Source: an uncultured Bacteroidales bacterium
GTDB taxonomy: Bacteria > Bacteroidota > Bacteroidia > Bacteroidales > Paludibacteraceae
Direction: 5' to 3'
Length of the DNA: 42,120 nucleotides
Assembly (NCBI GenBank): GCA_903830915.1
Contig: CAIKVR010000023.1
Coordinates: 1-42,120, forward strand
The notes under the pieces are model-generated. The model was not told where the DNA came from, did not search any database, and saw nothing but the letters and a program-made list of their open reading frames with translations. Each line of letters opens with the position of its first letter. Position 1 is the stretch's first letter. Shown one piece after another: positions 38,504-41,531 of the stretch. A program made the position numbers and the translations under genes.

Positions 38504-38524
38504 CAACTTATTAAAACAAACACC

Positions 38525-38614
38525 CCGCTGTAGCGACAGCGGCATTACATATTATCAAAAGCGTTAGCTTTTATTCCTACTATTGAAACCTAGACAATCC
38601 ACAAAAAACTACAT
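38525..38614 (+). repeat. Structured repeat, copy 1
   Basis: CCGCTGT-AGCG-ACAGCGG hairpin, CATTACATATTATC, second hairpin AAAAGC-GTTA-GCTTTT, then ATTGAAACCTAGACAATCC...AAAAAACTACAT. Confidence 0.8.
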
Positions 38615-38670
38615 ATTATTTTAAAAATTATTTTTATTTTTGTAAGTGCATATATCAAAATCTAATCAGA

Positions 38671-38946
38671 ATGAATTTACCCAGATATGAGTTAAAAGCA
38701 GAGAAATCATTAGTTATATTTGAATTTATTAGTGACGGTATTAAGGGTAAAATTCCAAAGATTATTAAATTTGACGAAACAAGTTTAAATATTATGAGTA
38801 CAACAATAAAAAAACTAAATACAAGCAAAATACCTATCATTAGGATAGATAATAAATTAGAATTACTCAAAAACAAACCAATTTTTCAGCAGAAACTTAA
38901 TATGGCAAACGAAACACTACGGGCTGTAGGACTGCCTAAGCATTAA
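38671..38946 (+). CDS. Small hypothetical protein (N-terminus resembles DUF6934; possibly chimeric)
   Basis: Promoter-like TATTTTTG at 38635; MNLPRYELKAEKSLVIFEFISDGIKGKIPKIIKFDET. Family memory only. Confidence 0.5.
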   Translation: MNLPRYELKAEKSLVIFEFISDGIKGKIPKIIKFDETSLNIMSTTIKKLNTSKIPIIRIDNKLELLKNKPIFQQKLNMANETLRAVGLPKH

Positions 38947-38963
38947 GCTCTCTCATTTTTCCC

Positions 38964-39042
38964 CCGCTGTAGCGACAGCGGCAATCCATATTATCAAAAG
39001 CCTTAGCTTTTATTTAAACTTAAAACTCAAAAAAAACTACAT
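38964..39042 (+). repeat. Structured repeat, copy 2 (degenerate 3' part)
   Basis: CCGCTGTAGCGACAGCGGCAATCCATATTATCAAAAGCCTTAGCTTTTATT...AAAAAACTACAT. Confidence 0.8.
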
Positions 39043-39107
39043 TTTTAGACCAATAAACAAAAAAATAATATTTTTAATTTTATCGTTCAAATGTGAATAA
39101 CTATTCA

Positions 39108-39115
39108 TATATTTG
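39108..39115 (+). promoter_or_regulatory. Predicted -7 box TATATTTG preceding hairpin-repeat copy 3
   Basis: TATATTTG-CAACTCATATTATTA, 21 nt before the hairpin; same layout as copy 1. Confidence 0.5.
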
Positions 39116-39136
39116 CAACTCATATTATTACCTCGT

Positions 39137-39190
39137 CAATTGTAGCGACAATTGCATTACATATTAAACAAAGCGTTTTTAAATATTATC
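39137..39190 (+). repeat. Structured repeat, copy 3, with covarying stem
   Basis: CAATTGT-AGCG-ACAATTG then CATTACATATTAAACAAAGCGTT; both stem arms differ from copies 1/2 but stay complementary. Confidence 0.8.
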
Positions 39191-39351
39191 CTGACTTGAA
39201 ATCTGGACAATTTCAAAAGTAACTTGGATGATAGCAACTAACGCTCCACGACTATAACAATATAGGCGTGGGGCTGTTGCTTTATCATTAGTTACAGGGT
39301 CGTCCAGAACCTCAAGTCAGTGATAAAGCAAACAGTTCCCACGCTTTTTTT
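39191..39351 (+). ncRNA. Candidate structured RNA / attenuator with two mutually exclusive folds ending in an intrinsic terminator
   Basis: Seven nested helices by hand (46 bp) over 39191-39320; alternative hairpin 39266-39287 with 39321-39344 followed by T7. Confidence 0.65.
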
Positions 39352-39429
39352 ATGCCCGAAAATGAACAAAAACTATATATGGAGTTACCCGAAAATCCAA
39401 AAACAGAGTAGGAAATTAACTGTAAAAAA

Positions 39430-40251
39430 ATGAAAAAACAAATCAAAAACATCAGCTTGATAGCATTATTATTTGCTATGACTTCATTAATTATCTCTTG
39501 TCAAAGTAAAACAGATAAGTTTCTTGACAAATATGAATCTATCACCAAAACTTTAGAAGAGAAAGTGAAAAAAGGTGACAAAATAAGTTCTATTTCAGAT
39601 TTGACAGATATGTTTGCTGATTTGGCAGAATTTAGTGACGAAAAGGAAATGAAAGCAATGGAAGAGAATTTGAATGGAGCACAAAAGTCAAGACTTCTAA
39701 AGATTTCCGCAAGATATGCTGATGCAATGTTGAAACTACAAGGGTTAGATACCTCTAAAATGATGAAAGATATTCAAAATGTGTCATCAAAAGCTATGGA
39801 GAAAGTAGAAGATATAAACAATCCTCAAATTGAAAACAACAATAAAAAAGTGGTAGGTTCAGGTAAAGACCAAGAACTATCTGAGTATGATAAAGAAATA
39901 TTGGGTACTTGGTCAGGCACTTTAAGTGGCAGCAACTTAGCAACTAAAAAATTGATAATTGTTTTTACAAAATCCTCGTTCAATCAACAAAAGAACTTTG
40001 GAAATGTAGAAGGATACAGCACTGTTAATAATACAAATAAAACAGCTTTTGTTGGTACTTTTTTCTGTGATGCTGATACACCAGTATTAGAATTAAACGA
40101 GCCGAAAACAAGTGGCACTAATGGAACTTTTAAAATAAGCAGTTTAAGTTGTGAGGGTGAAGAATCTGTAAACAGAGATAAAATTTGTGGAACTTGGATT
40201 TCCTATAATGGTCAATTACAAAGGGAAGTTAGATTAAAAAGAATGAAATAA
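39430..40251 (+). CDS. Hypothetical lipoprotein
   Basis: Lipobox SLIISCQ; charged alpha-helical middle; C-terminal ILGTWSGTLSGSNLATKKLIIVF domain. Confidence 0.75.
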   Translation: MKKQIKNISLIALLFAMTSLIISCQSKTDKFLDKYESITKTLEEKVKKGDKISSISDLTDMFADLAEFSDEKEMKAMEENLNGAQKSRLLKISARYADAMLKLQGLDTSKMMKDIQNVSSKAMEKVEDINNPQIENNNKKVVGSGKDQELSEYDKEILGTWSGTLSGSNLATKKLIIVFTKSSFNQQKNFGNVEGYSTVNNTNKTAFVGTFFCDADTPVLELNEPKTSGTNGTFKISSLSCEGEESVNRDKICGTWISYNGQLQREVRLKRMK

Positions 40252-40316: not shown

Positions 40317-40919
40317 ATGAAAAGAACAATGTTATTTTTCGAAGCAGTTTTATTTACTGCATTTATTCTTACAGGTTGTGCTGCAAAAAACACAAATGAT
40401 AAGGATAATTCTATTAAGTCTCTACAAAAGACAGATTCTGTTGTGGTAAAAAAAACAGATAATAAAGTCACTTGTACAGAATGTGAAAAAACAAAAGATG
40501 GTGAGACATATACCATCAAAGAATGTAAATTCAGGGATTACAAATCAGTTAAAAATACATTTATTAATTCTACAAATGGTCATGAGTACTATGAATACAA
40601 ACTTACTAAACTCGTTGGCAATAAGGAGATACCCATTAAAAATATTGAATTATTTAACGATAAAAGGAATGAATTACTTTCAATAATTAATGAACGTATG
40701 CGTGCGGTAATTAATATACATTATGGTGAAGAAGGGGTCTCTGATTGTTTGCCCAATGATGATCCTAATAGAAAATTTACTTTTGATCAAATAAATATCA
40801 CTTTTCAAGAAGGCAAGTTTCTGTTTAATGTTTCACTTGGATTACCGGATGCTTGTGCAGCATTCGATCAAAATGATGTTGAAATCTCCATTAAAGATAT
40901 TGAGAAATACCTAAAGTAA
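40317..40919 (+). CDS. Hypothetical lipoprotein
   Basis: Lipobox ILTGCAAK; no family recognised. Confidence 0.75.
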   Translation: MKRTMLFFEAVLFTAFILTGCAAKNTNDKDNSIKSLQKTDSVVVKKTDNKVTCTECEKTKDGETYTIKECKFRDYKSVKNTFINSTNGHEYYEYKLTKLVGNKEIPIKNIELFNDKRNELLSIINERMRAVINIHYGEEGVSDCLPNDDPNRKFTFDQINITFQEGKFLFNVSLGLPDACAAFDQNDVEISIKDIEKYLK

Positions 40920-40949: not shown

Positions 40950-41531
40950 ATGAAAAAAGCAGTTATAGCATTGTTTTTATTCACATTAACGAATTTTTGT
41001 ATTGCTCAAACAGGTCAGAGCAAACAAATAGAAGTTCTAGTAAATAATATTTTTGTGAGATCAAATGGATTAACATCCATGATAGTATTTAATTTTCAAT
41101 ATGAGAATAAATATACTATGAGAGTTATAGCAATCCCTCAAACAGAAATTGTCAATGTTAGTGGAACTTATATTTTGTCAAATTCAGGAACAGATAAGGC
41201 AAATTTAATTTTAAATCCAAAATACATTAATAAATCTTCTGCTTATAATCGGTTTCAGGATTTTAAAATAGATAAGTTTATATATAATAATCTACAATTT
41301 GATCTTCGGAAATTCCTTGAATCAGATGTACAAAAATACATTTCAGAAAATCCATTACTTGCTCAGGCCTCAAACGATGAGAATAAAAATCCATTTTACA
41401 TTTTGCAAGGTAATGTGAACTTTTATTCAAGAAAGTTAGATTCAAAATCAGAACGAGAGGCCAAAATGAAACAACAAGAAGAAAAAGAAAAGAAAAAAGC
41501 TGACTTAGAAGAAAAACTAAAAGGTTTGTAA
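40950..41531 (+). CDS. Hypothetical secreted protein
   Basis: Signal peptide MKKAVIALFLFTLTNFCIAQ; highly charged C-terminal tail. Confidence 0.7.
   Translation: MKKAVIALFLFTLTNFCIAQTGQSKQIEVLVNNIFVRSNGLTSMIVFNFQYENKYTMRVIAIPQTEIVNVSGTYILSNSGTDKANLILNPKYINKSSAYNRFQDFKIDKFIYNNLQFDLRKFLESDVQKYISENPLLAQASNDENKNPFYILQGNVNFYSRKLDSKSEREAKMKQQEEKEKKKADLEEKLKGL

Follow-up and report, generated by a model that had tools for sequence, protein, structure and literature searches.

Results

The window analysed here is a stretch of 42,120 nucleotides from an uncultured Bacteroidales bacterium of the Paludibacteraceae, and all of the features described in it lie on the forward strand. A putative controlled gene at 39430..40251, predicted to encode a 273-aa lipoprotein, heads a series of same-strand ORFs (40317-40919, 40950-41531 and 41550-end). 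A promoter had been predicted upstream at 39108 by the sequence-only reading, and the sequence TATATTTG (39108..39115, the TANNTTTG box) is indeed read there as the -7 box of the Bacteroidota sigma-A, whose consensus is given in PMC7366714 and PMC9723704. It is followed by the small hairpin P1 (CAATTGT-AGCG-ACAATTG, 39137..39154), which is repeated in the source genome and specific to the subfamily of the window copy. The P2 region (39166..39190) is degenerate in the window copy; most copies of the same subfamily carry AAAAGC-GTTA-GCTTTT. A long hairpin and the T7 tract of a predicted intrinsic terminator (39345..39351) come next. The known DUF805b RNA motif (RF02914) lies separately in the same leader at 39379..39414, with a score of 44.8 bits against a gathering score of 35.6.

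Two truncated copies precede the full one. The first, at 38504..38621, retains the promoter, P1 and P2, lacks the long hairpin, and lies ahead of a DUF6934 gene (38671-38946); the second, at 38949..39049, retains P1 and P2. Such copies, with promoter and/or P1/P2 and no long hairpin, were also seen elsewhere (L088, 5143-5273 and 4403-4548; L089, 3434-3563 and 2733-2842). They precede DUF6934, ORF6N or KilA-N genes and often form same-strand arrays with a full copy at the end. Possibly, the 5' part constitutes a regulatory or mobile module in its own right.

Two predicted folds compete for one strand

The nested hairpin proposed earlier, Fold A, was obtained with RNAfold as the minimum-energy fold of 39185-39355 at -62 kcal/mol. 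Shuffled versions of the window copy reached -33.8 +/- 4.0 kcal/mol (z = -7.0), and none of 200 equalled it. The coordinates given for the arms that carry the argument were found correct to the base when read against the sequence. In stem a, the 5' arm CTGACTTGA (39191..39199) pairs with the 3' arm at 39312..39320, as seen both in the sequence and by RNAfold. Stem b (5' arm 39202..39208, pairing with 39302-39308) is flanked on both sides by conserved internal loops, GAAA/CCTC and AATTT/GGG. The 5' arms of stems c, d and e (39219..39250) form the putative antiterminator strand, which holds the shared middle strand GCGTGGGGCTGTTGCTTTATCAT (39266..39288).

The middle strand has a second partner, the tail TGATAAAGCAAACAGTTCCCACGC (39321..39344), which is a diverged copy of the 5' arms and provides the 3' half of the Fold B terminator stem. 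Two arm pairs of Fold B were read in the sequence, namely TTGCTTTATCA / TGATAAAGCAA (39277-39287 / 39321-39331) and GCGTGGG / CCCACGC (39266-39272 / 39338-39344). The competing helix was confirmed, and it extends a little further than first described: because CTGT in the middle strand also pairs with ACAG in the tail, Fold B is a single bulged helix of 11 + 4 + 7 bp, and it abuts the T-run directly. The paired arms and the alternative helix are thus confirmed. The proposed three-strand architecture, in which diverged 5' and 3' strands compete for the middle strand beside an intrinsic terminator, holds for the window copy, is kept by covariation in the family and is supported.

A multicopy family in Bacteroidia

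Two things not seen in the sequence-only reading are that the element occurs in many copies across the class and that it is associated with particular genes. A search of the source genome with 39100-39430 gave 15 matches, and a covariance model was built from six of them. With this model, 24 copies were found in the source genome at E < 0.01, part of them truncated to the 5' portion. Of 40 relatives, 23 carry the element; they fall into 6 of 17 genera, and the copy number per genome ranges from 0 to 27. In Bacteroidia-wide samples, strong matches appeared in 54 of 295 genomes and 33 of 156 genera, and all 25 positive genomes of the phylum sample belong to Bacteroidia. A pattern search named Flavobacterium, Prevotella, Hoylesella, Paraprevotella, Tannerella, Odoribacter, Culturomica, Paludibacter and others as carriers.

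Phage, plasmid and viral collections yielded very few matches: one short match each among plasmids and phages, and one viral contig. One full copy is carried by a plasmid of Bacteroides finegoldii, 5' of a gene for a lipocalin-like lipoprotein. On the B. finegoldii plasmid NZ_OY725960.1 a related element (L353, 2501-2740) adjoins a recombinase gene, and another (L354, 2440-2740) lies on MT835917.1, a gut phage-labelled contig of similar size (15.5 kb). These plasmid and phage-labelled copies suggest some horizontal transfer.

In 5' to 3' order the anatomy of the element comprises the TANNTTTG promoter, subfamily-specific small hairpins, stems a to e, the tail and the T-run. The Fold A hairpin has about 40-50 bp in five stems, which differ greatly in sequence from copy to copy and retain their pairing. 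Sequence conservation is low except in the two internal loops, which are kept family-wide, and in the apical stem GCTCACGCC/GGCGTGGGC; there is no invariant seed. The tail, about 25 nt long, is similar to the 5' arms of stems d and e, frequently as GATAAG...CCACGC. Over 103 copies, Fold B has a median stem of 20 bp with a loop of 27 nt, and in 94% of them no more than 2 nt separate its helix from the T-run. The T-tract is weak in a few copies (TGATTTT, TTCTTTT).

Covariation of both folds

Covariation in homologs was assessed with 36 diverse copies and 500 shuffles per fold, and it is strong for both folds. In Fold A, 84.6% of cells are paired and double changes occur in 34 of 41 pairs, including all five consensus pairs of stem a. 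Its covariation score of 0.452 compares with 0.212 +/- 0.009 for the shuffles, none of which reaches it. In Fold B, 79.6% of cells are paired, double changes occur in 16 of 21 pairs, and the score is 0.316 against 0.210 +/- 0.012, again reached by none of the shuffles. When Fold B was slid as a control, the score did not exceed 0.137.

The 5' arm, middle strand and tail change together in per-copy triples. Matched tail/middle changes are seen as AGTCCGCG with GCGCGGACT in L114, CACCC with GGGTG in L106 and L134, CCCACA with TGTGGG in L093, CACGG with CCGTG in L201 and CCACAC with GTGTGG in L155, and they fall in separate lineages. Pairing between the tail and the middle strand of one and the same copy averages -23.2 kcal/mol in 103 copies, in comparison with -19.4 kcal/mol for the tails of other copies and -11.4 kcal/mol when the middle strand is shuffled. 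For 26-nt windows downstream the value was -8.8 kcal/mol; about 21 of them were compared per copy, and in 96 of the 103 copies none paired as well as the real tail. Relatedness of the copies could account for part of the Fold B signal. Because relatedness can raise shuffle-based scores, greater weight attaches to the slid controls and to the separate compensatory cases. Judged from these alignments, both folds are under selection.

Position relative to genes and promoters

A downstream gene could be called for 104 full copies. In 103 of them it is on the same strand, and its start lies most often 20-130 nt past the T-run. In the pattern-search set, which partly overlaps the first, the figure is 99 of 104. 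The gene upstream is mixed in strand (64 + / 26 -). Given the same-strand counts, it is very probable that the element is a 5' leader, and not an independent RNA or the end of a mobile element. The possibility of an IS end had been raised as a refuting outcome; unlike an IS end, the element occupies 5'-leader positions. A TANNTTTG box was found within 190 nt upstream of the first stem in 61 of 101 full copies, where 11 were expected.

By a domain-match tally, 34 of 98 first downstream genes are of the restriction-modification or restriction-helicase kind, as a raw share, and nearly all types of such systems are represented. The subfamily with P2 AATAGCATTCTGCTATTG and tail GGATAAGGATTTAGTTCACGC, found in the order of the window, precedes many kinds of restriction-modification genes. 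These include HsdM, HSDR_N_2/N6_Mtase fusions, Type III Mod, EcoRI methylase with a GmrSD/HNH partner, Eco57I, Type IIG, Type ISP, a DrmD-like SNF2 helicase and PLD helicases. The window-type subfamily also lies ahead of a restriction-modification gene in L136. Other downstream genes encode T9SS Por_Secre_tail, Fib_succ_major and fn3 proteins, lipoproteins and ion channels. In Flavobacterium and its allies many of the genes encode SusC-like TonB-dependent receptors, about 220-460 nt downstream.

Behind the restriction-associated subfamily, a TPR-repeat protein of about 660 aa recurs (L094, 4562-6547; L161, 221-2197; L271, 1410-3386); it is possibly an undescribed defence component. At L090 2274-4376 (G039:C295) the copies are in tandem. 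Behind every one of them come a small membrane ORF, one for a Tox-URI2-like protein and a third ORF; the array resembles repeated toxin modules, each with a leader of its own.

Comparison with known RNA families

The hairpin could not be assigned to a known family, as the sequence-only reading had held. Rfam 15 was searched at gathering and permissive thresholds, and nothing credible was found over the hairpin in the window or in the other scanned loci. The matches in these loci were DUF805/DUF805b, one tRNA and weak chance matches. 6S-Flavo and Flavo-1, whose exclusion had been advised, gave no match in any of them. Skipping-rope RNA was dropped, there being no Rfam match to it. With regard to a metabolite riboswitch, only two small conserved internal loops were seen, and no Rfam riboswitch matched. 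In open-access text no account of such a leader in Bacteroidetes was found. The RNA family is therefore apparently undescribed; this novelty is provisional, based on Rfam 15 and open-access text.

Flavo-1 (RF01705) and 6S-Flavo (RF01685) are structured RNAs of Bacteroidota (PMC2864571), and PMC9723704 reports Flavo-1 matches as indistinctly sense or antisense to transcripts. That paper also gives 64 structured 5' regions for F. psychrophilum, without describing such a leader in the passages covered; some of these regions could be copies. The DUF805 and DUF805b RNAs (RF03081, RF02914) form a cis-regulatory motif of Bacteroidota that shares the leader in some copies. DUF805b differs in being a separate short motif, 28 nt past the T-run and without overlap with the hairpin, and it is also present in the leader of two further copies below the gathering score. 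Motifs of this DUF805/DUF805b kind are recurrent neighbours of the element and were also noted close downstream at L007 1782-1813 and L215 1770-1802, and farther off at L101 326-390.

Discussion

Computation establishes the family, its two covarying folds, the terminator geometry, the same-strand position and the promoter enrichment. On this basis the element probably is a cis-acting 5' leader that works as a transcription attenuator with a large antiterminator hairpin. RNA polymerase would start at the TANNTTTG promoter and produce an untranslated leader of about 230 nt. Since Fold A holds the middle strand, it is taken as the antiterminator. Once Fold A has formed, the tail would have no partner and the U-tract no stem, and transcription would continue into the gene. 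If Fold A were prevented or opened, the tail and the middle strand would form an intrinsic terminator of about 20 bp, Fold B, and transcription would stop. A factor (protein, ligand or RNA) at the two conserved internal loops, the obvious place for it, would shift the balance between the folds. Transcription of the element, termination in it, read-through as its default and a factor acting at its loops are what we infer from these structures. Two hallmarks of intrinsic-terminator attenuators are present: a terminator stem followed by a U-tract lies 5' of a same-strand gene, and a conserved antiterminator is mutually exclusive with it.

With nothing barred from pairing, the probability that Fold A holds the middle strand exceeds 0.9 in 84 of 103 copies; Fold B is dominant in none. 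When tail pairing is wholly barred in A, the median difference of A from B is -1.9 kcal/mol. Bistability of the two folds was therefore dropped, as near-equal energies hold only with the tail so barred. When the window copy is folded as a growing chain, Fold A has already formed in full by the time the tail emerges, so that Fold B would need a trigger. Because the predicted equilibrium strongly favours Fold A, read-through would be the default and the terminator conditional. Under default antitermination, termination would need the 5' arm to be blocked or Fold A to be opened. A leader-peptide attenuator was also considered and rejected. An ATG before the apical stem (ATGCTCA[CT]G..GCGTGGGC) occurs in 29 of 103 copies only; the frame relation and stop position of the short ORF vary among copies, and a 9-codon frame is common to 13.

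Three other explanations were weighed against the attenuator. A stand-alone small RNA acting in trans, with the downstream gene served by a promoter of its own, would account for the element's own promoter, its terminator-like 3' end and its many paralogous copies. Bacteroides does possess multicopy paralogous small RNAs, FopS and GibS (PMC11697453); FopS has canonical sigma-AB promoters and a link to SusC genes. However, the description given there is of trans-acting RNAs with a single-stranded stretch at the 5' end, the R1 seed in FopS, and a terminator hairpin. They lack a long antiterminator and are not tied to leaders, and in anatomy they differ from the present family. The small-RNA explanation is unlikely, considering the nearly constant strand and usual closeness of the next gene, the low conservation without an invariant seed, and the covarying antiterminator, which a plain terminator does not explain. 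We give a similarly low weight to a 5' mRNA stabiliser or a protein-binding or processing hairpin, working by Fold A alone with the tail as a duplication remnant that has no role in termination. It agrees with Fold A as the ground state and with the stronger covariation of Fold A than of Fold B. Nevertheless, such a hairpin needs neither the covariation between tail and middle strand nor the T-run that directly follows the tail in nearly all copies.

A mobile or recombination DNA element (an integron attC-like hairpin, an IS200/REP-type end or a MITE) is highly improbable. The dispersal within a single order, from genomes without the element to the most copy-rich, the mostly shared strand of neighbouring copies and the cargo-like downstream genes would fit it. 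On the other hand, the fixed relation to the downstream gene together with a mixed upstream gene argues against both attC-like and transposon-end readings. It is the opposite of attC, which marks the 3' end of a cassette gene on the same strand, and an integron attC site was rejected. The helices contain G-U pairs and covary as RNA, and the mobile collections were poor in matches. A search of the source genome for IntI (TIGR02249) returned generic tyrosine recombinases only, all below the curated cut-off.

The attenuator reading has known parallels. BglG/LicT RAT hairpins and ANTAR dual hairpins are attenuators whose antiterminators are stabilised by proteins. Like these, the present family sits in leaders and combines an internally looped antiterminator hairpin with an intrinsic terminator, only one of which can form at a time, a principle described in PMC3369936. 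In contrast to them, its hairpin is much longer, the 3' arm of its terminator is a diverged copy of the 5' arms, and its target genes are unrelated.

If the attenuator is real, it represents a class-wide cis-regulatory RNA family absent from Rfam 15, and the three-strand competition gives direct predictions for reporter mutants. Because a single leader type fronts unrelated restriction-modification systems, a common on/off switching of defence is suggested. A bolder possibility, which we hold only tentatively and consider rather doubtful, is that one portable RNA switch and not any particular protein regulator controls nearly all restriction-modification types (I, II, IIG, III, ISP and DISARM-like), surface proteins and SusC-like receptors across Bacteroidia, with a single cue sensed by the leader RNA. 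The family, if real, stands ahead of genes on which phage resistance and nutrient uptake depend in Bacteroidota of the environment and the gut.
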